64,000 nucleotides of DNA from Medicago truncatula (lineage: Eukaryota > Streptophyta > Magnoliopsida > Fabales > Fabaceae). Below the pieces are notes generated by a model. It searched no databases. It saw nothing but the letters and a program-made list of their open reading frames with translations, and was not told the DNA's origin. The stretch spans positions 40,757,832 through 40,821,831 of the forward strand of contig NC_053046.1 of the NCBI RefSeq assembly GCF_003473485.1. The letters are read 5' to 3'. Made by a program: the position numbers and the translations under genes. Shown piece by piece: positions 3,249-54,600 of this stretch (position 1 is its first letter; every line of letters begins with the position of its first letter).

Positions 3249-3700
3249 TTACAAATTTGGATTCCCTCCTGTATTTGAGGATTTCATTTTAGAGACAATG
3301 ATTGCAGTTACATCCCCTCTTCCGCAATGCATCGCGAAGATGACTGATAACATTGTGTGGCATGTCTTCCCCTCTAAAACTGAGGAATGCATCATAGGTA
3401 AAACCACGTGACTGGTCTCCATATTTTGCCATAGACATAGTGAACAGAAAGAACATAACACACTTGAGAATGTAAAACAAAGTAGAGCACTGAAGTATGA
3501 ACTATTTTTGAAACTTCATGGAAGACCCTGTTACTTAATTTGTTTACGTTGACAAATAAAGGGCCATTGTGATATATACAAAAGACGAAAATATGAATTG
3601 GAAGATGTGCATCTCAATTGTGCTTATATTTTATAATGGCTTGCCTAAAACGTAAATATTAGAATTCTCTCACGGAAAATATCTATATCATCTGCTACAT
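3249..3700 (-). pseudogene. TNL fragment D: 5' end of a TIR-NBS-LRR gene
   Basis: The minus-strand frame 3480-3289 encodes the first half of a TIR domain. It has the pattern YGDQSRGFTYDAFLSFRGED and then HLRDALRKRG, matching the start of TNL copies A and C. The homology stops abruptly near 3290, after about 60 residues, so the catalytic half of the TIR and everything downstream are absent. Bases about 3480-3700 resemble the upstream region of TNL A (shared words around GTTTTA..CATTATAA.ATATAAGCA). It is a truncated relict lying in tandem, same orientation, downstream of TNL C. No function is expected. Confidence 0.8.
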
Positions 3701-4205: not shown

Positions 4206-7200
4206 TTAATTAGTAGTCTTACTTAACACATTATTTTTTGTTGCCTCCAAGTCTAAAGTGGGAAAGCTCAGTTTTGCTTCTCGTAGTCGATTGAAAATTC
4301 CTTCAACATATATTTTCATTCCTACCTCGGATCTTAGGAATGAAAATGTAACCCATTTACCTCTTGTAAAAGCAGCAAGCATGGTTGTGTCTATATCTAC
4401 AGAAGGAAAGCTACTTTGTGCTTCACAAAGTCCTGACCTCATTCCAAACAAGAATATTTTCATCAATATTTCTTGTACTTTGTGTCCCCAAACTTTTCTT
4501 ATGAGCAGAGGTTGAAGGTTCTCCTATATACGCATCTATAGGTGGCTTCATTAATTCATCCTTATGGTTTAAGTTTGGAGGTTGAGGCTCATTTTTATCA
4601 TCATCATCATATAATTTCTTGATAGTTCTTAGCATCCATGCCAAGTTAGAGTTTTCATCTAGTGGTTTTCCTTTTAATGCATCCTTAACCTCGTTTGACA
4701 TCTGCCTCAAAGACGCCATTCGATCTTGTAATTTGTCTTTAATGGCATTGTCTTCCACATCTATGCTTTCCGCAAATATCCCATCAACATTTCGTCAAGA
4801 GCTAACTCCTCTATCATCCTTATTTGATCCTTCATAGGATCTTTTGTAAGGACTACAGTATTAGGTAAGTTTGAGTACCTTGTTGGGTCAGGACACATGA
4901 ATTGAACACGTTCTTCCATGTTGGTAGTTCCTTGTTTGTACACAAAAACTCCCCATGCACTTAGTGTCACTCACACTGGACGAGGCTTCATATGAAACAT
5001 GCACTTGATTCCATTCATGGGTAAGAAATAATGCATCAAGGTCTAGCCACTCCTCATCATTGAACAAGAGTCGTAGATCACAAACTAAAACATGATTTGG
5101 TTCAATTCTGAACTTGTAATAGCCTTTGTGAGGGAGACATTGACCGTTGATAACCAAGTGAAGCTCAACAAGTTGCCGATGAGATCTTCTTTTCTTCCCA
5201 ACGACACTTTGGAACGAACACCAATGCTAAAGCAACATTGGGGAACTTCCCATGAACCTCAGCAACATGGAATCCCTCCTATACACCTATAATCCAAACA
5301 TTCTGGAGCCTTGGTAATAGGCATCACAATTTGTAATCCACGCCTCTCTTTTTTCACCTGTCATATTGAAAAAACAAAAAAATTGGTCACGTCAGTATAG
5401 GTGTGTAGCATCAAAAACCTCTACATACGGACAATTATTTCCATGGTCAATAGTTTGTCATAGCTACAATTACACCTCCGTTACTTTGTTAATTAGTCAT
5501 TTTAGCTAAATTCTACTACAAGTACAACATCGACATTTTAGTCCAAAATTGTGTTGAACATGTGTGTAATTAATAAATTTAGAACAACCTATGAAGAGGT
5601 TATGTACCTGATCCCATAGCATGTCTGATGTCTCTCTAGTCAAGTGGATGCAATCTCTTGCATCGATTTTTCGAATAGTGCATGGCAACTCTGAAATATG
5701 TTCAAGCTTCACACAACCATGAACATTCAGAATGCTCAAGTTGGTACATTCAGGAATTTTTTGAAGCATATTGCAACCACTGACATCAAGTTTTGTCAAG
5801 TGATCAGACTCTTTAATGCATGCAGGGAGGGAGACCAAATTGTTATCTGAAGCAATCAATTTTTCTAATTTTGGAAAATATATGAGAATTTCCTGAATAT
5901 CTTCATCTGACAAACCGCTATTTCCAAAATGCATCGCTTTTACTGTTGAACTTTCATTGGCTTCTTGTCTATCAGGTAGAAATCTTCTGAAAGATTCACC
6001 AAGTTTAGAAAATCCTCCAAATTTAAAAGCAACAACATTTGGTAATGTGAATATGCTACTTGGTAGATATTTGAGATTCTTGCTATATGGCATCTCTATT
6101 GAAACAAGTCCAATAAGATTATCAATGGAATTTGGCAGCTTCTTAATAGGGGTATTTTTCATATAAATCTTCAATGGTTTATTCATCTTGTTCACTATAT
6201 CTGGGAAGTGTTTATGTTTTACACACAAATTAAGGTCAAGGACTTCCAGAGATGGTAAAAACATTCTTTGCACAAAACTTTCAAGTTTGATGCTTCCCAA
6301 AGCACTTAAGATGACAAGATGTTTGAGAAATCCAATGGATTCATGAACTGTTGTTAGATTCTTACGATTCTCAAGTCGCAATTTGATAGAGCAGAGCCAA
6401 TAACAAAGAAGAAATCAATAGAAACTAGAGAATAGTGGTGAATATTATTAAGTAGATGGAATAAAGAAAAGAGTTACAAGTTCCAGAGCAAAGCTCCTCA
6501 GCAAAGTCTCTTGCTGCCGGCCCTAAAAGGCTACTAACAAATAATCTAATTGCTTACCTAGAACTCCCTCTACAGATTTACTTATATAGAATACTACCAA
6601 GGATATATTATCAAATAATATCTTTATTATATATTTCTAATATAAATATCTTTACTAATATTTATTTAGAGAATATCTTCTTACTCTCTATTGGGCTAAG
6701 GCCTATATCTAGTTTCCTATCACAATTCTCTCAAATTTTCAACTTTGCACAGATCAGGCATTGTTTTGGTGATAGATTTGATTATTTGAGAAATTCATTA
6801 ACAAGCTCTTCAATATTAGATGTTGCGCTGAATTCATCAAGCTAGTATCTCTTCAAAATATTCTATTCTTCCCCCTTTGAAGCAGCAAGCTATATCTAGG
6901 AAAACACTCTGAGCATACGGCTGCAACACATCATAGCTTACTTTTAGCACATCTTGAATCCCTTTACGAGGAATCCTCTCATAATCTTTCAACGCATGCT
7001 CCCAAGCTTTTAAACTTTTTCTAGTAGCCAAATTGGAGCCTATTACTTTTAAAGCCAATGGAAGACCTTTTGCATAACCAACCGCACGAGAAGACGTGGC
7101 TTCATATCCTGTTTCAGGATTGCTTTTTCCAAAGGCATTTCGACAAAACAACTCAAGAGAATGTTGATCACTAAGTTCAGTCATTTCATAAATACTTTGA

Positions 7201-8519
7201 ACTACAAAAGAATGAGTACCTACAAGCAAACCTTTGTCCCTTGTAGTTATAATGACCGTACTACCTGGACCAAACCAATCACTTCCTCCTGCCAAATTTC
7301 CTATTTGTTCCATCTCATCAACATCATCAAGAACCAACAGAACCTTTTTCCTTCCAAGCTTGTATTTTATTTCATAGATTCCTTTACTTATCTTCCCAGC
7401 TCGGTTTCTGGCTGCTCAAACATCTCTGGTAAAAGTGTCTGGTGTAAATCTTCTGGGCCGTTGATTTTGTTTGATTTCTCTCTAACATTGGCAATAAAAC
7501 TTGCAGCTTCAAATTGGTGCACAATTTTGTTATACAATGCTTTGGCAAGTTCTGTTTTTCCTATTCCACCGAGTCCGCATATACCCAACATACATATAGT
7601 GTCGTCATTAGGCTTCATGTCCAGAAGTGATTTGACCTCTTCTATGTGTTGATCAAGTCCAACGGGATTCTCACCAACAAGTGAAGGTTTAGGGGGCTAT
7701 CTTAGCATGAACCTTTTCAACAATCTCTCTAATATGATCGATTTCGAACCTGTAGAAATTCAACACACTGTTTCTTAATCTTGTGCACATTTTTTATGAA
7801 AAATAAAAGAAAAAATACAAGTACTGCAAAAAATGCAATTTTTTTATGTATTTTTGACGTTCTTTTAGGTGTAAGAATTGCACTGATATATCTATTTATA
7901 ACTTGGGATGAATAATCATGTTAAACAATTATAGATTTATTTCACCTAAAATATAGGTTCAAACAAAGTACATACATAAGAACAAAGTTGTAGTTACATA
8001 CCAATTGTGGATATGGTGACCTTTCAAGTCTGCAGCTTCAGACAATGCTGCTTTACATGCTTTTATATTTTCTGAATCTTTTCCGAACCTATTCTCATGA
8101 GCAACCATGGCTTCCCCATAACTATTTCTTTCGTTTCGTACATCCGATAGATCAGCACAGTAAAAAATTGGGAAAGTAGTTTGTTTATTGTTTCTTTTCA
8201 TGCATTTGATGATCTTCACTAGTTCACCAAGGCACCACCTCGAAGATGCATAATTCTCCGAAAAAACAATAACTGAGATCTTAGATTCTTCAATGGCTTT
8301 TAAAAGTGCAGGTGATATATCTTCCCCTATTCTCAGATTCTTATCATCAAAGAATGGATTGATTCCCCTCTTCCGCAATGCATCGCGAAGATAACCGATA
8401 AAATTGTGCCGCGTATCTTCCCCTCTGAAACTAAGGAAAACATCATAGGTAAAACCACGTGATTGGTCTCCATATTTTCCATAGACATGGTGAACAGAAA
8501 AGAACAAAACGGAAGACAC
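4206..8519 (-). pseudogene. TNL copy C: disrupted TIR-NBS-LRR gene
   Basis: Minus-strand relic of a TNL immune-receptor gene, closely related to the intact TNL at 44892-50827. Exon 1 (8519-8002) holds a complete TIR domain including WCLGEL with the expected catalytic Glu. Exon 2 starts near 7749 and holds the P-loop GLGGIGKT and LVLDDVD. Lesions are visible. Near 7395-7405 a 1-base deletion relative to copy A shifts the frame after ETELG. After EELVNE the gene jumps directly to the sequence of exon 4 (start of the LRR), deleting the rest of NB-ARC including MHD and all of exon 3. A solo LTR (6384-6722) interrupts the LRR exon. The exon 5 equivalent has an in-frame stop and frameshifts. The C-terminal extension is preserved only to about the REAKLSFPTL motif, then homology ends at about 4206. 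It cannot make a receptor. Confidence 0.9.
6384..6722 (-). mobile_element. Solo LTR (Ty1/copia-like) inside TNL C
   Basis: A 339-bp insertion begins TGATAG and ends CTATCA. It is flanked on both sides by the direct repeat CAATT (6379-6383 and 6723-6727), a perfect 5-bp target-site duplication. On the minus strand it contains a TATA-like CTATATAAGTA followed by T-rich polyadenylation-type sequence, as expected of an LTR. There is no internal retrotransposon sequence, so this is a solo LTR left by recombination between two LTRs. It splits the LRR exon of the TNL C pseudogene. Confidence 0.85.
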
Positions 8520-26360: not shown

Positions 26361-27295
26361 ATGGTAGTGAAGGTGTATGGTCCCCACTGTGCCTCAGCCA
26401 AACGAGTGTTGGTTTGTCTTGTTGAGAAGAAAATCGAATTTGAGGTTGTCCCTGTTAATGTCTTGGAGGGTGAACACAAAGATCCTGAGTACCTCAAATT
26501 ACAGGTTCATCTTTGTTTAGTACTATGCTAAAAGTTTATTTATTTTGATTATTCATTTTCTGACTCATGCATGTTTTTTGTTCATAATCTGCAGCCTTTT
26601 GGAACTGTTCCTGTAATAAAAGATGGAGACTATACCCTTTATGGTTAAAACATCTTGACCCCATGTCATACTTTTTCTACTTCTTGTTTTTCTACATATT
26701 TGATATGGTCACAGCTTGTAAACACTTTAAACAAGGGTTTTATGTTGGTTATAAATATAAAATATGACAAACAAATTATAGACATTTGCATAACTTAATT
26801 GTCTTTTTTATCTTTATGTTTTCATCTATTTGTGCAGAATCTAGGGCAATAATGAGATACTATGCTGAAAAATATAGATCTCAAGGGGTTGAGTTACTAG
26901 GAAAGACAATAGAAGAAAAGGGTCTTGTGGAACAATGGTTAGAAGTTGAAGCACATAATTTCCACCCATCAGCATACAATTTGACCTGTCATGTTTTGTG
27001 TCCTACACTACTAGGTGGCAGCTCTCCAGATCCAAAGGTAATTGAAGAAAGTGAAGCAAAGTTGGTGAAGGTGTTCAACATTTATGAAGAGAGGCTATCA
27101 AAGAACAAGTATTTGGCTGGTGATTTTTTCAGCCTTGCTGATATAAGTCACCTTCCATTTATGGATTACGTTGTTAACAATATGGGGAAAGATTATTTGA
27201 TAAAGGATAAGAAGCATGTTAGTGCTTGGTGGAATGATATAAGTAGTAGACCATCATGGAACAAAGTTCTTGAGTTATATAAACCTCCAATTTAA
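26361..27295 (+). CDS. Phi-class glutathione S-transferase, copy 1
   Basis: Three exons, 26361-26504, 26595-26643 and 26838-27295, with GT/AG junctions; 216 residues, normal for phi-class plant GSTs, whose three-exon layout it shares. The N-terminal thioredoxin-fold domain has KVYGPHCASAKRVLV with a candidate catalytic Ser at about residue 12, VPVIKDGD (cis-Pro region) and ESRAI (glutathione gamma-Glu contact). The helical C-terminal domain has EQWLEVEAHNF and LADISHLPF. The enzyme conjugates glutathione to electrophiles in the cytosol and serves in stress or specialised-metabolite handling. Intron 2 is short (194 bp) compared with copy 2. Only about 30 residues differ between the paralogs by eye, concentrated in the substrate-side helices (for example SAYNLTCHVLCPTLLGGSS against PAYNLVIHVLFPSLLVDGT). 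Confidence 0.93.
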
Positions 27296-36800: not shown

Positions 36801-38115
36801 ATGGTAGTGAAGGTTTATGGTCCCCATTGTGCCTCAGCCAAACGTGTGTTGGTTTGTCTTGTTGAGAAGGAAATAGAATTTGAGGTTGTCCCTATTAATG
36901 TCTTGAAGGGTGAACACAAGGATCCTGAGTACCTCAAATTACAGGTTCATGTTTGTTAACTAGGAATTAAAGTTTATTTATTTGAATCTTCATTTTCTAA
37001 CACTCATGTACTTTGTTCATAATCTGCAGCCATTTGGAAATGTTCCTGTTATTAAAGATGGAGACTATACCCTTTATGGTTAAACATCTTGACCCCATGT
37101 CATGCTTTTCTAGTTCTTGTTTTTACACCTTTTGTTCCTTACCTTAAAATTCATGTTTGGTATATTGTAGATTTGTTAAAATAACTTGATCCACCATTTT
37201 ACAAAATTAACATGGTTCACCAGGATTCTTGGAATCAATCGTAATATCAAACATATGCTAAATTAGTTTAATTTTAGAGTAAAGATACAAGTTTGACATC
37301 AAATTTAATCTATAAAAATAAAAACAACTTTTAATTTCTAAAATATATAAACCGTAATGACTTAGATCCCTTACCGGACAAAATTGGAGATAGATCAATG
37401 TTCACATAGGAACTAAATTGTTTTCAACTTATTTTTTGGAAAGATTAAAGTTTACTTTTATTCTTCTTATAGAATAAATTTTGAGTACTACATAATTTTT
37501 TCAAGGATCACAATGGTTCCTCACCCTTAGTTTTAATACAACAAGAATACATAAACATTTAATATACATTATGAGCTAATCATAAATCATTATTGCATGC
37601 CTACTGAATCTTATACTATTACCTTGCTGATTTTTATGTTTTCATCTATTTGTGCAGAATCTAGGGCAATAATGAGATATTATGCAGAAAAATATAGATC
37701 TCAAGGGGTTGAGTTGCTAGGAAAGACAATAGAAGAAAAGGGTCTTGTGGAACAATGGTTAGAAGTTGAAGCACACAACTTTAACCCACCAGCTTACAAC
37801 TTGGTCATTCATGTTTTGTTTCCTTCACTACTGGTTGACGGCACTCCAGATCCAAAGGTAATTGAAGAGAGTGAAGCAAAGTTGGTGAAGGTGTTGAACA
37901 TTTATGAAGAGAGACTATCAAAGAACAAGTATTTGGCTGGTGATTTTTTCAGCCTTGCTGATATAAGTCACCTTCCATTTACTGATTATATTGTTAACAA
38001 TATGGGGAAAGATTATTTGATTAAGGAGAGGAAAAATGTTAGTGCTTGGTGGGATGATATAAGTAGTAGACCATCATGGAACAAAATTCTTGAGTCATAT
38101 AGACCTCCGGTTTAA
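36801..38115 (+). CDS. Phi-class glutathione S-transferase, copy 2
   Basis: Three exons, 36801-36944, 37030-37078 and 37658-38115, with the same phases and exon sizes as copy 1; 216 residues. Catalytic-Ser region GPHCASAKRV, VPVIKDGD, ESRAI and LADISHLPF are all present. It is a direct paralog of the gene at 26361, in the same orientation 10.4 kb away. Intron 2 is 579 bp instead of 194 bp, so about 385 bp of AT-rich DNA was gained here or lost in copy 1. A short repeat of about 150 bp (38140-38290) sits in the 3' UTR and is absent from the same place in copy 1. Substitutions that distinguish it include HNFNPPAYNLVIHVLFPSL and KERKNVSAWWDD. Role as for copy 1: glutathione conjugation in the cytosol. 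Confidence 0.93.
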
Positions 38116-41028: not shown

Positions 41029-42208
41029 TACGAATGCAACTTATTTGACTCCTACAAATATTGATATGCAAGAACATAAGTTTGAATATGATATCATTTC
41101 TCCACACTTCAAAATATAAGTTTTATTTTTTAACTGGGTATCATCAACGTGCAATTGCAGAGACTAATAATTTGAATTTTGTAGAACTCAAATGAGCGAC
41201 AAATTCTCCCTATAAGTATTAACGTTGTTGCAAGTTCAAGACTGAATTTGAACCGAAAACCTTAGTTAAGTTAAAAGAGACTCGAGTGTGTAATTACTAG
41301 GTATGTAAAAAAAAAAAATAGTTAAAAGAGATTAAAATCGAGTTCCCTGCCCTCCAAAAACGTGTAAACCAAACATCTTCTTAAATCTTAAATTTAAATA
41401 ATCTCCTTTTTCCCGTCATTTCCCTCCAACCAATTCCCACGCACCAACCAAAAAACCATAAAATAAATACCCTTTATTTTTCCCTCACTAAATCTGATCG
41501 CACGCTTTCCTCCGCCGCTGGTAATACTACTCTGATCACACTCTTTCGTACCTCACTCGTAAATCCTTTTTCTCTTTATTATTATTATTCCATGATTTTC
41601 AAGCATTTTCTTTCTTATTGTTCCGACTTGCGTTGTGTCTCCATTTTAGAGGAACCTACTTCTGACCTAATACTATCATTTTGTTATTCTTTTTGTTCAA
41701 AATTATTATAATTAAATGGTTAAATTAATATCATGTTTGTGGATAAATTAAATGGTTAGTCAAATAAATGGTCCTTATAAATATTCATAATTTTGTTTTT
41801 AATCTCTAAAAAAATCACACTTTTTAATCTCCGTAAAAGTCTGTTAACATTTTTAGTCCTTATACAATTTTCCACCAGCATTTTCGATCGCTGAAGAAGT
41901 TACAAGATTAAAAAGTGCGATGTTTTTGTAAGGATTAGAAATAAAATTCTGGATATTTATAGCGTCCGTTTACTTAAATTAACCATAAAATAAAACTGTG
42001 ACAATTGCTCCAATTTCAGTAATAAGGCATGTAGTGAATGTGAAAATTGTTCTTTGTATTGGTTTGGATACAATTCTCAGGAAACTTGATATGTGTTTAA
42101 AGATTTTTATTTTGATTGTAATGATGTATGTGTTGATATATTTACTCTCTTTTCTATGTAAATTTTCAATAATATAATGTAGTAAAACATTAATGCAGAC
42201 TTTCAAAT

Positions 42209-42478
42209 ATGATGACTAGCTTGTTTAGTTCAAATAAAAAGCGTGGTAGAAATGATGATGATGATGAAGAAGAGCGAAAGCAGAATCAAAGGCCAATCTT
42301 CCATTGTACGCGTATGAATAAGATTATTATTGCTGCGTTGATAGGCATCTATTACCTGTACCTTTTAGAAGAAGAAAGTGACAGTGAAAGTGAAGACAGT
42401 GATAGTGATACAGATACTGATATTGATACGGAAACTGAAAGTACTGGAAGGACAAATGAAGTTCCTGATGATCAATAG
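42209..42478 (+). CDS. Small acidic single-pass transmembrane protein, copy A
   Basis: 89 residues, intact. Order: MMTSLFSSNKKRGRNDDDDE (basic patch then acidic), EERKQNQRPIFHCTRMNK, a hydrophobic stretch of about 16 residues (IIIAALIGIYYLYLL), then an alternating acidic and Ser/Thr tail of about 28 residues (EESDSESEDSDSDTDTD...), ending GRTNEVPDDQ. The tail looks like a casein-kinase-2-type substrate. I do not recognise the family. The ATG lies 15 bases after a 3' splice site (TAATGCAG), and a conserved non-coding exon ends near 41558 (CACTC/GTAAAT), so there is a 5' UTR intron of about 640 bp. The nearest downstream gene is TNL A, same strand, 2.4 kb away. The start could also be the second Met. 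Topology and localisation are predicted only from hydrophobicity. Confidence 0.7.
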   Translation: MMTSLFSSNKKRGRNDDDDEEERKQNQRPIFHCTRMNKIIIAALIGIYYLYLLEEESDSESEDSDSDTDTDIDTETESTGRTNEVPDDQ

Positions 42479-43500
42479 AAAAGGAAACAGCTGCAATTTT
42501 GTTAGTACAAAAGGGATGATTCGGAAACTTGAGCTTTATGCTCTCATAAGTTAAATTGCTTGTGAATTTTGAGAGCCATGTTACAATGTGACTAATAGAT
42601 AAGAAAAATGACATGCATTTTGGTTATTTTGAATTTTCAAGTTAACTAGGAAATTTATTATTGTTTTATGAAATTAGTAGTTTTGGATTATTGAACTAAA
42701 GTGCCATAAGAAACAATTTTTCCTCTTTGCTATGCACAGCTTTGATTTCTGTTTCTTCTGTTTTTCATGTTACCCTAAAGTCAGGTCTGTTGGTATTTGT
42801 TCTGCTCATGGAGGAGATTCAGTATTGATTTATTTAACCACCAACAGTGTGGAAATATAACTAGAAGTTTTTTCTTCTGTTAGACTGATGTTAGTATTTA
42901 TGTAAGTTCCTAACGTTCTAACTTAAGACTCTTTCAGTGTCACTAGCTCATCAACCAAGCTGCCTAGTTAAGGTGACAATATTGTTGGTTACTGCCTAGT
43001 CCCCAATTCTATCATCAAACATCCATTTGAATTTTCAAGTTAGTGAGGAAGTTTATTTTATTGTTGTATGAAAATAGTAGTTTTGTGCTGTGGCAATAGA
43101 AACAATTTTGTTTCTTTGCCGTGCACACCTTCATTTCTGTTTCTTCTGATTTTCATGTTACCTAGAGTCGGGTCTGTTAGTATTAGTGCTCAACAGCTAG
43201 GCTTGTTCTGCTAAGAGCTTTTTTTAGCATATGAGAATCCCCCGGACCCCAACTACCAATTGTGTGGGGATATAGCTAGAAGTTTTTTTTTGATAGACTA
43301 ATGTTAGTGGTTATGTTAGTTTTTAGGGTTCTAACCTTGAACATTCGACTTAACTTCTTTGGTGTTGCTTAGGTCATAAACCGAGCCACCTAGTTAAGGT
43401 GATATTATTGTTGTCTTGTCTTCAATTCTATCATCAAACACCTATTTGTTATTTAGCTTTGCCTAATGAAATGCTTAGGTTTTATGGTTAAAAAAAAAAA

Positions 43501-44891: not shown

Positions 44892-47800
44892 ATGTCTATT
44901 GAAAAATATGGAGAACACTCGAGTGGTTTCACCTATGATGTTTTCCTAAGTTTTAGAGGAGAAGATGTGCGGCACAATTTTATTGGTTATCTTCGCGATG
45001 CATTGCAGCATCGGGGAATCAATGCTTTCTTTGATGACAAGAATCTGAGAATAGGGGAAGACATTTCACCTGCACTTTCAAAAGCCATTGAAGAATCTAA
45101 GATCGCAGTTATTGTTTTTTCTGAGAATTATGCATCTTCCAGGTGGTGCCTTGGCGAACTCGTTAAGATAATCGAATGTACGAAAAGAAACAAAAAACAA
45201 ATTTCTTTTCCAATCTTTTTCCATGTTGATCCATCAGATGTAAGACATCAGAAAAATAGTTACGAGAAAGCCATGGTTGATCATGAGGTTAAGTTTGGAA
45301 AAGACTCTGAAAATGTAAAAGCATGGATAACAGCATTGTCTGAAGCAGCAGACTTGAAAGGCCACCATATCAATACCGGGTATGTAACTAAAGTTGTCTT
45401 ATATGTAGAAATAGTCTTGTATGTCACAAGATCAAATCTATAATGTTTAGGCACAGTACATATTCTTCTAGTTCAAAAGGTCCTTGTCTCTGACTCTTTT
45501 TCAAGTCTATATTTTATGTTGATAATGTTGGATTTTAGTTCATGGCATGATCCGCTTAGGTACTTGTAAATTAAAGTAAAATACTTCCAAGAACAAAAAT
45601 ATTGATTAAGCATGAGTGAATTTGAACTATATAAACATTTATCATATAAATACTTGTAAATATAAGTAGTTTCTTTGATTAAAAAATTTACGAACTGTGT
45701 TATCCTATACTGATGTTCAAGTAAGTGAATCGCATTTTTGTTTAAAAATGAGTGGTAACTATTATGCTAGAATGAAACAAGTCTTGATTTTTGAAAAAAT
45801 TACGTGTCATATTCTTGCAGATCCGAAATTGACCACATTAAAGAGATTGTTGAAAAGGTCCATGCTAACATTGCTCCTAAACCTTTGCTTTATGGTGATG
45901 ATCCAGTTGGACTTGAACATCATACAGAAAATGTGATGTCACGTCTAGACAATACTGATCATACAGTAATGTTGGGTATACATGGACTTGGTGGAATAGG
46001 GAAAACAGAACTTGCCAAATCATTGTATAACAAAATTGTGCACCAATTTGAAGCTGCAAGTTTTCTTGCCAACGTTAGAGAGAAATCAAACAAAATCAAT
46101 GGCCTAGAAGATCTTCAAAAGACACTTTTATCAGAGATGTTTGAGAAGCCAGATACCGATCTGGGAAGTACAAGTAAAGGAATCAAAGAAATAAAGCAAA
46201 AGCTGGGCAATAAAAAGGTTCTTTTGGTTCTTGATGACGTTGATAACAAAGAACAATTAAAAAATTTGGCAGGAGGAAGTGATTGGTTTGGCCCAGGTAG
46301 TAGGATCATTATAACTACAAGGGACAAAGGTTTGCTCATAGGTACTCATTCTTTTGTTGTTCAAAAGATTTATGAAATGACTGAACTTAATGAGAAAGAT
46401 TCTCTTGAGTTGTTTTGTCGGAATGCCTTTGGAAAGAGCCATCCTGAAACAGGCTATGAAGCTGTGTCTTCTCGTGCGGTTGGATATGCCAAGGGTCTTC
46501 CATTGGCTTTAAAAGTAATAGGTTCTAATTTGGGTGGTGGAAAGAGTTTAAGAGCTTGGGAAGATGCATTGAAAAATTACGACAGGATTCCACGTAGAGG
46601 AATTCAAGAGGTGCTCCAAGTAAGCTACAATGTGTTGGAGCCCAATGCCCAGAGTGTTTTCCTAGATATAGCATGCTTCTTCAAAGGGGATAGAGTAGAT
46701 TATGTTGAAGAGATACTTGATGACTTCGCTGCAGTAACTGGTATTGAAGAACTTGTTAATAAATCTCTCTTAATAGTTAAAGATGGCTGCTTGGATATGC
46801 ATGATCTAATACAAGAGATGGGCAGAGATATTGTCAAGCAAGAGTCGCCACGAAATCCCGCCAAACGTAGTAGATTATGGTCTCATAAAGATATTATTAA
46901 AGTATTATCAAATGAAAAATATGTAAGAATCAAATCATTTACTTTTATTTTATGTATTTATAAATTATCGACGTGGTAGATCACAATTACATACCTTTTT
47001 CGGAAACCCTGATTTTATCTTTTTTACTTGTTTTAAAGGGAAGTGATGTACTTCAAGGGATAATGCTTGATCCTCCCCAACCTATAAAACAACAAGATTG
47101 GAGTGATACTGCCTTTGAGCAGATGAATTGCCTCAGAATTCTCATTGTTCGAAATACAACATTTTCATCGGAGCCTAAACATCTACCAGATAATTTAACT
47201 CTGCTTGATTGGGAGGAGTACCCTTCAAAGTCATTTCCCGCAATGTTTCATCCAGAGGAAATCATCGTCTTCAATTTGCCTGAAAGCAAACTTACACTGG
47301 AAGAGCCATTTAAGGTAAACTCGTAGCTTTTTATATGTTATTTTTTGTTTTATTTTTATTTTTATATATAACAATAATAACTATGTTTGTTTGACTTTTC
47401 TTTTGGCAGGTATTTTCAAAATTGACTATCATGAATTTCTCAAAAAATGAATCTATCACCGTAATTCCCGATGTTTCAGGAGTCGAAAATTTGAGAGTAC
47501 TTAGACTTGATAATTGCACTAACCTAATTATGGTTCATGAATCCGTTGGGTTTCTCGAACACCTTACTCACTTCAGCGCTTCAGGATGCGCCAAACTTCG
47601 AAATTTCCAGCAAAAAATGTTTTTACCATCCCTTGAATTCCTTGACCTTAACTTATGTGTTGAACTTGAACACTTCCCAGATATACTGAACAAGATGAAT
47701 AAGCCATTGAAGATTTATATGATAAATACTGCAATTGAGGAGTTGCCAGATTCCATTGGTAATCTTATCGGGCTTGTTTCTATCGAGATGACAAGTAGTT

Positions 47801-50800
47801 GGAAGCTCAAATATATACCATGTAGCTTATTCACACTACCAAATGCTGTCACCTTTAAATTTGGAGGATGTTCTCAACTTGCCTTGAGAAGATTTCTACA
47901 TGATATCCCTTCAGCAGCCAATGGTCGTTCAACATTAAAAGCATTGCATTTTGGAAATAGTGGTTTGTCTGATGAAGATCTTAAGGCAATTCTTATCTCT
48001 TTTCTTGAATTACAAGAGTTGATTGCATCTGACAATAATTTTGTCTCTCTCCCTGTGTGCATTAAAGACTCTGCTCACTTGACAAAGCTTGATGTCAGTG
48101 GTTGCAATATGCTTCGAGAAATTCCTGTATGCATCAACTTAAGAATTCTGAATGTTTACGGTTGTGTGATGCTTGAACACATATCAGAGTTGCCATGCAC
48201 TATTCAAAAAGTAGATGCAAGATACTGCATCCGCTTGAATAGAGAGACGTCGGAGATGTTATGGTATCAGGTACTTCACCTCTTTATAGCTTGTGCGAAA
48301 TAAATTTGATGCCTAGCTTTATTTTAGGAGGTAATAAGGGAGATATGTATGTGTATTATTTACCTCATTTTAGTTTATCAAAATATAAAAGAATAAGAAT
48401 CGTAACATAAAAACGTGCCGTGTAAGTATCATTTTACTTTTATAATGTCTTCTATGTGGCAAGTTAATGTTGTCATTCGTTTGTGGGTCAAAATTCACTC
48501 TTTTATAATGCTAGCTTTATATATCACAGTCACAGTGCAAACGTGGACTTTAGTGACAAATATATGCTACCGATTTTTTGGTTTTTGTAATATGACAGGT
48601 GAAAAGCGAGAGACGTGGATTACAGATTGTGATGCCTCAAAAGAAAACTGGGGTTCCAAATTGGTTTGACTACAGCTGCAAAGGAGGGAATCCGCGGTTT
48701 TGGGTTCGTAAGAAGTTCCCCAATGTTGCTTTAGCATTGGTATTCGAGGGAGTGACCGGGAGGGCCAGAAAATCTCGTCGGCTACTTGTTGAGCTTCACT
48801 TGGTTATAAATGGTCTCTGTGTCCGCCGTAAAGGTTATTACAACTTCAGAATTGAACAAAATCATGTGTTAGTTTGTGATTTGCAACTATTGTTCAGTGA
48901 TGAGGAGTGGCTGGGCCTTGATGCATTACTTCTTGAGGATGAGTGGAATCAAGTGCAGGTTTCATATGAAGCCCCGTCTAGTGTGACACTAAGTGATTGG
49001 GGAGTATTTGTGTACAAGCAAGGAACCAACATGGAAGAATATGTCCAATTCATGTGTCCCGACCTAAAGTACTCACAGCTGGTAACTGACATATCACCCA
49101 CAATGACAATAGTTCCTCCAAAAGATGATAAGCTAGAACAGATGAAGTTGATAGATCAGTTAGCTCTAGATGAAATGTTACCTGGGATGTTGAGGGAAAC
49201 TAGGGACATGGAAGGCCGCAGTTCAAATGAAGGAAATTTACAAGACCTAATGGCGATTGTGAGTGGCCTAAATAAGGAGGTTCAAGATGCATTAGAAGGT
49301 AAACCGCTGGATAAAAAGTCCCCCCTGGCATGGATTCTTCAGATAGTCAATGAATCAAATGATGATAATGATGAGCAAGCAAACTTTGATCATACAGATG
49401 AAATGAAACCCGCCATAGGTGTAGGAGAAGCTTCAACCTCTGGCCACCAGGGAAGGTCAGAGGCCCAAGACAGCAACGCTGAGCAGGATGGAATAATGAC
49501 AGGGATATTCTTGAATGGAATGGGAACGGGACTTCGTGAAGCACAGGGTATCTTTCCTCCTCTAGATATAGACACTATCATGATTGCTGCCTTAAATAGA
49601 GGTGAATGGATTAGATTGTCACTCCCAGAGTCTGAGGCCGAAATGACGATATACATGGAAGGAATTATCAATGGACTGCTGGAAGCAAAGCTGAGCTTTC
49701 CTACTCTGAAAGAGTGGGAAATACTAAATACCGTGTTAAGGAAGGAAGGCCATAATACGATGTTTCAACAAATAGATTGGACTGGAATAGTGATTCCAAG
49801 CTATGAAGATCCTTTGTTGCAAACATTCATGATGATGAAGCAAGGAAGTTGTGAATCGGAGAGGGCCAAGAGTAAACTCTTCTGCAAGTTGCTGGAGGAA
49901 CAAAATGCTCTGCGCAAGAAATTTGAAGAAATTGATAATGAAATTGCTACTATGGATAATTCAAAGAAGGGTCACATCCTTAATGAGAAGCTGGCTGATG
50001 TTTTGAAAGGAAGAGCTGAAGAATTGCAGAGGTTCTATGATGCTGGTATTGAAGGCTTCAAGAACTCAAAAGAGATTCAAGATCTTATGACAGCTACATA
50101 CTCAAATGGAATGAGGAATGGTGTCCTTGAAGCACGGGCCATATTACTTGCTCTGGACATGGACATAATAACTCACGTGTTTGAGGGGAATGAAAATGAA
50201 ATTTCTGCTCAGGATAAAGATAGTCGCCTTCTTCCTTCTTCAGAAAATCAATATTACAATTTTGTGGAGAAGCTTAACACTCAATTTGCCTGGTATAGTT
50301 CAAATAAGGATCAGAGCCCTGATGACTGCCACACAAAGGAATCAAGCATTTCTGACTCAAAATCTTCTTTGGGTAGCACAAAGATTTGTGCAAACATTGG
50401 AAAAGAAAGTTGCAAAGATGTTATAAAGCATAAGAAGCTGGCTGCTGTCTTAAAAGAAAGAGGAGAAGAATTGACGAGTCTCTATGATGCTGAAATTGAA
50501 CAATTACAGAACTCAGAAGAGATTCAAGATCTAATGAGTGCCATCTACTTGAGTGGACTGAAGGATGGAGTCCTTGAAGCACAGGCCACCTTACTTTCTT
50601 TGAACATGGACAAACCAACTCCTATGTTTGAGGAGAATGAGGAACATATTACTCATATGGCTTCCAATGATGAAGCTGTTATTGAAAATGACGATGATAA
50701 GACTATTGGCAAAGAGGATAATCCTAGTCCTACTGGTCCAGAAGTTGACAAAACTAGGGACACTCCTTACCCCTATGGTTGCTTCTGGAGGATTTTGCAC

Positions 50801-50827
50801 ACTTATTTTTGCAAGTGTTTTTCTTAG
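44892..50827 (+). CDS. TNL A: TIR-NBS-LRR immune receptor with a long C-terminal extension
   Basis: Five exons: 44892-45379, 45821-46922, 47039-47314, 47410-48270, 48599-50827, all phase-consistent, giving about 1651 residues. TIR at about 12-160 (FTYDVFLSFRGED; SENYASSRWCLGEL with the NADase Glu at about 89). NB-ARC at about 190-500 (P-loop GLGGIGKT 218-225, LLVLDDVD, GSRIIITTRD, GLPLALKVIGS, MHD at about 489-491). LRR at about 530-909. Post-LRR C-JID-like domain at about 930-1070 (PNWFDYSCKGGNPRFWVRKK ... DEEW ... WNQVQVSYE). Such receptors detect pathogen effectors and signal through TIR NADase activity. Unlike standard TNLs it continues for about 570 residues with a repeated unit (EIQDLM.A.Y..G...GVLEA.A.LL.L.MD at about 1400 and 1549; a related unit at about 1205). 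It ends in GCFWRILHTYFCKCFS. No break was found. Confidence 0.9.
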
Positions 50828-51899: not shown

Positions 51900-53860
51900 G
51901 CTTTGAGGAATTAAATAGAAAGACTAAAAACACTCGTTTATTGATATTCTGTTTTTTATATAAAAGTATGGACTAAAATTAAATGAAACTTATACAAGGA
52001 CTAAACATAGCAGTTCTAATATAAATTTTAAAATATTTTGATTTTTCTTTTTACTTAGCTCCTTTTGTGAAGAAAAAAACATGTAGCTTTGTTACTATAT
52101 AAATACAACATATTTGACTGCTACAAATATTGATATGCAAGAACATAAGTTTGAATATGATAGGTATCATTTCTCCACACCATAAAATATAAGAGTTTTT
52201 TTTTATCTTAATTAAGTTACAAGAGACCCGTGTCATCTTATCTAAAGGTTATTGATTTAAAATATTTTTTTAATAATAAAATATAAGAGTTTAATTACTA
52301 ATAAAAAAAATAATTAAAAGAGATTATAATCGAGTTCCCTACCCTCCAAAAATGTGTAAACCAAACATCTTAAATTTAAATAATCTCACTTTCCCTCTTC
52401 ATTTCCCTCCAACAACCAAAAAAACCCTAAAATAAAAACCCTTTATTCCTCAATTCAATTCAATCACCACACAACTGCTTCCTCCAATCCCTAAAATCTA
52501 ATCGCGCGCTTTCCTCCGCCGCTAGTAATACTACTCCGATCACACTCGTAACTCCTTTTCAACTTCCTTTTTATCACTATACTATACTATTATATTATTT
52601 ATTTATTATTATTCCATGATTTTCAAGCATTTTCTTTCTTATTGTTCCGACTTGCGTTGTGTCTCCATTTTAGAGGAACCTACTTCTGACCTAACACTAT
52701 CATTGTGTTATTCTTTTTGTTCAAAATTATTAATAATTAATAAAGCATGTACTAGTGGATGTGAAAATTGTTCTTTGTATCAGTGTGGATACAATTCTCA
52801 GGAAAATTGATGTGTTTGAATATTTTTATTTTGATTGTAATGATATATGTGTTGATATATATTTACTCTCTTTTCTATGTAAATTTCCAATAATATAATG
52901 TAGTTAAACATTAATGCAGACTTTCAAGTATGACAACTAGCTTGTTTAGTTCAAATAATAAACGTGGTAGAAATGATGATGATGATGAAGAAGAGCGAAA
53001 GCAGAAGCAAAGGCCACTGTTCGGTTGTACGCATATGAATAAGATTATTATTGCTGCGTTGATAGGCATCTATTACCTGTACATTTTGGAAGAAGAAAGT
53101 GATAGTGAAAGTGAAGACACGGACACTGATAATGATACAGATACTGATATCGATACAGAAACGGAAAGTACTGGAAGGACAAATCAAGTTCTTGATGATC
53201 AATAGAAAAGGAAACAGCTGCAATTTTGTTAGTACAAAAGGGATGATTCGGAAACTTGAGCTTTATGCTCTCATAACTTGAGAGCCCTGTTACAATGTGA
53301 CTAATAGATAAGAAAAATGAAATGCATTTTGGTTATTTTGAATTTTCAAGTTAACGAGGAAATTTTATTATTTTGTTTTATGAAATTAGTAGTTTTGGAT
53401 GATTGAACTAAACTGCCATTAGAAACAATTTTGCCTCTTTGCTATGCACACCTTTAATTTCTGTTTTTCATGTTATCCTAAAGTTAGGTCTGTTAGTATT
53501 TGTTCTGCTCATGGAGGAGATTCATTCAGTATTGATTTATTTAACCACCAACAGTGTGGAAATATAGCTAGAAGTTTTTTCTTCTGTTAGACCAATGTTA
53601 GTGTTTATGTAAGTTCCTAACATTCTATCTTTTGGCCTCTAACTTAAGACTCTTTTGGTGCCGGTAGCTCATCAACCAAGCTGCCTAGTTATTAGTTAAG
53701 ATGACAATGTTGTTGGTTACTTCCTAGTCCCCAATTCTATCATCAAACATCCATTTGTAATTCAGCTTTGCCTTTGATTATTATTAATAAAATGCTTAGT
53801 CTTCATGCTTCAAAAAAAAAAAAAAAAAAAAATCAGCTGTCATATGAAATCTATTTTGAT
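51900..53860. repeat. Segmental duplication, copy B (acidic-protein gene block)
   Basis: Same block as 40371-43500 in the same orientation, about 11.5 kb downstream. It lacks the MITE present in copy A and has only one copy of the 395-bp 3' segment, so it is probably closer to the ancestral layout. It ends near an A run at 53812-53831, after which TNL fragment B begins. Confidence 0.85.
52930..53205 (+). CDS. Small acidic single-pass transmembrane protein, copy B
   Basis: 91 residues, intact, about 85-90 percent identical by eye to copy A. MTTSLFSSNNKRGRNDDDDE, hydrophobic IIIAALIGIYYLYIL, acidic tail SDSESEDTDTDNDTDTDIDT, end GRTNQVLDDQ. Upstream are the same non-coding exon (ending near 52547 at CACTC/GTAACT) and the 3' splice site TAATGCAG just before the ATG. 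Differences from copy A are mostly conservative and keep both the hydrophobic segment and the charge pattern. This argues that the protein, not only the DNA, has been retained. Family not recognised. It precedes TNL fragment B by about 0.8 kb. Confidence 0.7.
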   Translation: MTTSLFSSNNKRGRNDDDDEEERKQKQRPLFGCTHMNKIIIAALIGIYYLYILEEESDSESEDTDTDNDTDTDIDTETESTGRTNQVLDDQ

Positions 53861-54007: not shown

Positions 54008-54600
54008 ACGAAGATGTTATGGATGTATTATCAGATGAAAATTCTGTAAGAGTCATATCATATACTTCTATTTTTATGCATTTATACATTATGATATGTG
54101 TTATTAATGACAACCAAGGTTTTACATTGCTGAATGTTGCTTCTACAATTGTGGTCGCAGTGGGATTGCTTAGATATTAAAAAATTTGATGTTGCAGTCT
54201 AGACGACAATCACATTCACATACCTTTTTCATAAACCCTGATGACGATATGTAATTGATCTTATTTTTTTAACTTGTTTTAAAGGGAAGTGCTGTAATTC
54301 AAGGGATAATGCTTGATCCTCCCCAACCTATAAAACAAGATTGGAGTGATACTGCCTTTGAGAAGATGAATCGCCTCAGAATTCTCATTGTTCGAAATAA
54401 AACATTTTCATCAGAGCCTAAACATCTGCCAAATCAGTTAAGGCTGCTTGAGTGGGACGAGTACCCTTCAAAGTCTTTTCCAGATATCCCTTCCGCAACA
54501 AATGGCCGTTCAACATTAAAAACATTGCATTTTGAAAATAGTGGTTTGTCAGATCAAGTTCTTGCCACAATTCTCATATCTTTTCTTGAATTGATATTTC
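54008..54600 (+). pseudogene. TNL fragment B: chimeric remnant
   Basis: Bases 54008-54060 match the end of TNL exon 2 and its splice donor. 54284-54483 match exon 3 (start of the LRR, SAVIQGIMLDPPQPIKQDWS). At about 54483 the sequence jumps to the middle of exon 4 (DIPSATNGRSTLKTLHFENS), deleting the last part of exon 3, intron 3 and the first half of exon 4. The homology ends at about 54592, exactly where a MITE starts. TIR, most of NB-ARC and the whole C-terminal part are absent. The open frame 54309-54866 continues into the MITE and is not meaningful as a protein. Confidence 0.85.

Follow-up and report, generated by a model that had tools for sequence, protein, structure and literature searches.

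A long C-terminal tail with internal repeats in a TNL gene of Medicago truncatula

The locus and the TNL A gene model

The window analysed here, a stretch of 64,000 nucleotides of the Medicago truncatula genome (contig C5, 40.76-40.82 Mb), holds a TNL gene, TNL A, and a broken TNL copy, copy C (4206-8488, reverse strand), which is disrupted by frame shifts and retains the C-JID together with the beginning of the tail. On the forward strand, TNL A is described by a five-exon gene model with GT/AG borders and a single stop that yields a protein of 1651 residues, or of 1644 residues with an alternative exon-2 donor at 46902. Exon 1 (44892-45379, splice border placed by GT) encodes the TIR domain (PF01582, E 5.8e-45), exon 2 (45821-46922) the NB-ARC (PF00931, E 1.6e-30) and winged helix (PF23282, E 5e-20), and exon 4 (47410-48270, borders from the gene model) the LRR (PF23286, E 5.2e-94), with exon 3 (47039-47314, from the gene model and without a Pfam match of its own) lying between winged helix and LRR. 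Pfam thus matches every part that defines a TNL: TIR, NB-ARC with a ROQ1-type (TNL-type) winged helix, and LRR. Exon 5 (48599-50827) carries the C-JID-like domain and the tail in one open frame with the stop at its end. An earlier, sequence-only reading of the locus had described exon 5 as a single frame of 742 codons in a protein reaching about residue 1651; our model agrees on both counts, the exon being open from 48599 to the stop that ends at 50827 (742 residues).

Direct repeats flank TNL A, with window positions 52300-53762 matching 41308-43033 at 75% over 470 nt and 88% over 1054 nt. A further TNL copy fragment at 54209-54592 (forward strand) joins a stretch of the exon-3 region (85% DNA identity) directly to a piece of exon 4 (86%), and another truncated TIR exon, whose upstream DNA matches too, lies just downstream of copy C (3307-3450, reverse strand). 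Elsewhere in the window, two forward-strand open frames that resemble each other (26768-27292 and 37555-38112) encode what we take to be the C-terminal part of glutathione S-transferases.

The C-JID-like domain of TNL A (48623-49082, forward strand, ends approximate) was delimited by aligning TNL A with eight C-JID exons of other TNLs, all from the same genome. The Pfam C-JID model (PF20160) has no match to TNL A exon 5 at E<=1, and it matches seven of the nine aligned members at E<=0.1 (best 2.1e-6), while a profile of the aligned paralogues found no PDB chain at E<=1. Because exon 5 aligns with these paralogues and seven of the nine members match PF20160, we call its first part a putative diverged C-JID, by homology to the paralogues.

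The tail and its repeat units

Beyond the C-JID-like domain, TNL A continues for a tail of 579 residues (49088-50824, forward strand), in which four repeat units were chosen by eye. Unit U2 (FLNGM..GLREAQ..FPPLD, 49478-49603) and unit U3 (YMEGI..GLLEAK..FPTL, 49622-49750), both on the forward strand and both also present in copy C, were supported by hhalign and shuffle scores; units r1 (49982-50206, forward strand) and r2 (50429-50653, forward strand), of 75 residues each, form a strong pair with 57% amino acid identity over 75 residues and 77% DNA identity over 224 nt, ungapped. Profile comparison (hhalign) links U2 to the r1/r2 units with a probability of 92% (E 7e-7) and U3 only weakly (14%, E 0.002). 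Local alignment scores of 122 for r1/r2, 63 for U2/r1, 52 for U2/r2 and 43 for U2/U3 were each reached by 0 of 2000 shuffles, and those of 38 for U3/r1 and 42 for U3/r2 by 1 of 2000 each, odds that flatter the repeats because the units had been selected visually. U1, a possible fifth unit, is doubtful, as the shuffles reaching its score numbered 0/2000 against r2, 83/2000 against r1, 1258/2000 against U3 and 1462/2000 against U2. In the 1644-residue model the motifs fall at 1394 and 1543 (EIQDLM), 1366 and 1515 (KLA.VLK), 1206 (FLNGMG) and 1254 (YMEGII), each shifted by +7 in the 1651-residue model; the latter gives 1401, 1550 and 1213 for units that had been placed near 1400, 1549 and 1212, within one residue in every case. 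The linkers between units are acidic, with net charge down to -6 within 18 residues.

Neither the tail nor exon 5 as a whole has an accepted Pfam match, and exon 5 searched against PDB sequences gave nothing better than E 0.39. Against the Pfam repeat models (TPR and similar), the tail returned only DUF5610 (E 0.025), which we rejected at 15.5 bits, below the cut-off of 26.4; a TPR reading of the G...G.LEA motif, made by eye, was rejected as well, since no Pfam model matched. PF20160 does not match the tail at E<=1, a weak test because that model also misses the C-JID of TNL A itself. Self-BLAST of exon 5 returned only the full self-match and was blind even to r1/r2, hence no test of the repeats, and six exact peptide patterns found no relative in prokaryotic and viral contigs, which says little for a plant protein. 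In the parts available of the one literature collection searched, no description of the tail of TNL A was found.

The long-tailed clade and its duplication history

The genome searched is that of TNL A itself (430 Mb in 42 contigs). Among the 107 C-JID-exon matches listed there, some of which are pieces of one gene so that the genes are fewer, TNL A has the longest open frame, 743 codons against a median of 199, all frames being counted stop to stop and so possibly taking in intron or upstream sequence. Frames shorter than 150 codons account for 15 of these matches, 150-300 codons for 74, 301-450 for 14, and more than 450 for four, namely TNL A and three genes on contig C4 (561, 548 and 474 codons). 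In a tree of NB-ARC domains from 30 loci of 118 matches, midpoint-rooted for drawing only, TNL A, copy C and the C4 trio (L034, L036 and L037) split from the other 25 rows with support 100/99, and the trio is the sister group and nearest relative of the A/C pair.

Each C4 gene runs on for about 300-390 residues beyond its C-JID, in the same open frame, and the three tails are 68-79% identical to one another and matched only at 8.27-8.43 Mb of contig C4 in the own-genome search. Past the first ~25 residues after the C-JID (BLAST to exon-5 residue 188), no likeness to the tail of TNL A was detectable; hhalign of the two tail sets aligned 14 columns, with an A profile of few rows in which one copy C piece (C2) stood in the wrong frame, and phmmer and BLAST of the TNL A tail alone against 1393 open frames from the loci compared returned nothing significant. 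Since long tails within a single exon also occur in its three nearest paralogues, the long tail is best taken as a clade trait and not that of TNL A alone: as compared here, it belongs to the A/C plus C4 clade, its content differing between the two branches. The earlier view of the extension as unusual for TNLs is right in that TNL A is the longest of the 107 listed, but has to be widened to the C4 trio. The tail of TNL A, for its part, turned up in these searches in no genes outside one small TNL clade, and the libraries consulted do not account for it.

Two of the C4 exons are strongly hydrophobic close to their ends (19-residue means of 2.61 in L036 and 2.87 in L037), as if C-terminally membrane-anchored, and the third, with a 19-residue maximum of 1.31, is not. 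A different later open frame, of 276 residues, occurs in TNLs on contigs C3 and C6 (2096-2923 of L035, reverse strand; also in L044 and L047); these frames have a common stretch that looks helical by eye, and for the L035 frame no Pfam match reached the cut-off. The TNL A tail (NFVEKLNTQFAWYSS) and the L035 frame (LVKEVSRQFTCWSHD) resemble each other over a short stretch, a likeness noticed by eye only that appeared in no search.

Homology between the tails of TNL A and copy C reaches 49744 in A and 4218 in C, with no further match found. The proposal that the extension predates the gene duplication thus holds up to A 49744, where copy C keeps the first part, but does not extend to the r1/r2 part, which has no match in C and may be either a gain in A or a loss from C. 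Synonymous divergence between r1 and r2 (dS 0.37) compares with 0.32-0.45 between A and C over TIR, NB, LRR and C-JID; in the tail-side pieces the A/C values are 0.69, 0.91 and 0.47, so that the dating of the r1/r2 duplication is loose, and it appears neither clearly younger nor clearly older than the gene duplication.

Readings of the tail and known systems

Our first choice, with a probability of about 0.42, is that TNL A represents a small-clade TNL whose home-grown repeat tail serves as a fast-changing accessory surface tuning recognition or the resting state. In this small clade (A, C and the three contig-C4 genes) the C-JID exon would run on into a long tail, and in the A/C branch a home-grown, probably helical unit would have been copied within the gene (U2, U3, r1 and r2), with acidic linkers between. 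The tail would most likely lie at the receptor rim, adjoining the C-JID, and provide an extra contact surface that tunes effector choice or the tightness of the resting state, signalling being left to TIR and NB-ARC. We infer the expression of TNL A, the helices of its tail, the position of the tail and its function. The accessory-surface reading has precedent, in the accessible portions of the respective reports, in the C-terminal extension of WRR4A Oy-0 (PMC10087428) and the post-TN regions of soybean TNL-ID proteins (PMC10934728).

Its main rival in our analysis, rather unlikely, is a tolerated run-on, in which the tail is translated but does little, having grown past an old stop by internal duplication and being still too young to have closed. 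Differences between r1 and r2 are spread evenly over codon positions 1, 2 and 3 (17, 17 and 18), and their dN/dS of 0.69 has a 95% bootstrap interval (0.38-1.33) that includes 1; together these show no clear selection for function, so that the repeat does not clearly appear constrained in sequence, as a run-on would predict. The end of copy C shortly after U3 and the sister-group tails without detectable kinship beyond their start point the same way. Yet the last 360 codons (49745-50824) are free of stops, the other five frames holding 13, 16, 18, 19 and 45, and none of 2000 mononucleotide shuffles of this stretch was stop-free; by this open-frame test, the tail looks like real coding sequence. 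The C4 trio, moreover, keeps its different tail, and two of the three comparisons give a dN/dS interval that lies below 1, which also speaks against idle sequence.

Differences between A and C over exon-5 residues 300-383 are likewise even over codon positions 1, 2 and 3 (22, 19 and 24). The A/C dN/dS is 0.29 for TIR, 0.37 for NB, 0.35 for LRR and 0.37 for C-JID, and 0.36, 0.47 and 0.59 for exon-5 residues 127-201, 202-300 and 300-383, with overlapping intervals for tail and core and, since copy C is broken, a mixture of constraint and decay in every value. In the C4 trio, the tails have dN/dS of 0.57-0.91 against 0.40-0.55 for their own C-JIDs. That tails change faster than cores is suggested by point estimates only.

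An oligomerisation or membrane-tether module, with helical units that multimerise and an aromatic, cysteine-containing C-terminus that binds membranes, is improbable. The hydrophobic ends of two C4 exons would suit a tether, but such a stretch is absent from exon 5 of TNL A (19-residue maximum 1.34) as well as from the third C4 exon. A single-sequence AlphaFold2 model of the tail has helices and no strands, in keeping with such a module, with a confidence too low for judging packing (mean pLDDT 34.8, pTM 0.21, 570 of 579 residues below 50). The same model accords with the earlier description of the unit as helical, but is too weak to count as evidence for it.

Additional domains in plant immune receptors are commonly interpreted as baits taken from elsewhere, and the sequence-only reading had raised an integrated domain of this kind as a possibility for this tail. 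As a copy of an effector-targeted host protein, the tail should have a donor, and none was seen: searched against its own genome at E<=1e-3, it matches three places, namely itself and two pieces of copy C, and the r2 unit at E<=10 matches two places, both in TNL A. These searches were coarse first passes that scored 5 candidates for the tail and 4 for the repeat, so that remote relatives or donors may escape them; at this sensitivity, no relative of tail or repeat was found in another gene of the genome. The lack of a donor in its own genome weakens the decoy idea, as does the lack of an accepted Pfam family, and we regard it as quite improbable even though the post-C-JID position and domain-like repeat fit the general NLR-ID architecture, as set out in the available part of one report (PMC10934728). 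Of the proposal of an undescribed integrated domain, then, the undescribed domain survives, being unusually long and without an accepted Pfam or PDB sequence match, and the bait is not supported. Finally, it is very improbable that the model is in error or the gene dead, in which case no TNL protein would carry the tail: the locus does decay, as copy C and the fragment at 54209-54592 show, but all five exons are open with GT/AG borders and one open frame is common to C-JID and tail.

A broader and tentative proposal, unlikely as a whole, is that the tail is a domain that originated within one small clade of TNLs, unborrowed and enlarged by internal duplication. Together with the different tail of the sister C4 genes, this would suggest the 3' end of the C-JID exon as a recurrent site of new recognition surfaces. 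What the locus offers is a receptor clade with long tails for which no donor was seen; they differ between sister groups, and in one of these the tail has been lengthened by copying within the gene. Should tails of this kind prove functional, receptors could evolve new surfaces in situ, a point that bears on how they gain specificity.

Like ROQ1/RPP1-type TNLs, TNL A has the order TIR, NB-ARC, ROQ1-type winged helix, LRR and, by paralogue alignment, a putative C-JID; unlike in them, this C-JID-like domain escapes the Pfam model and is followed by ~579 more residues with internal repeats. In the C4 trio, too, a single open frame covers C-JID and long tail, whereas the tails are not detectably related past their first ~25 residues and two of the three trio exons are hydrophobic near the end. 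NLR-ID receptors similarly have extra sequence fused to an NLR, but for the tail of TNL A the search of its own genome revealed neither donor nor relative beyond the A/C pair. In the portions available of the sources that follow, the product of the common bean I gene is a TNL of 1332 residues with a C-JID (PMC13392006), and the TN part of SRC7 interacted with the post-TN regions of soybean TNL-ID proteins, of which seven also interacted with viral proteins (PMC10934728). The Oy-0 allele of Arabidopsis WRR4A, in the accessible text, carries a C-terminal extension credited with resistance to Albugo isolate AcEx1 (PMC10087428); both it and TNL A are TNLs extended at the C-terminus, the WRR4A extension being allelic and 80 residues long and the tail of TNL A 579 residues long, with repeats and without known phenotype. 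Prunus Ma, as far as the available part of its description goes, is a TNL with five post-LRR domains (PMC4851768). Ma repeats the post-LRR domain itself, whereas the repeated unit of TNL A has no C-JID match (by the weak PF20160 test); in both, the C-terminal region of a TNL appears to have been enlarged by duplication.
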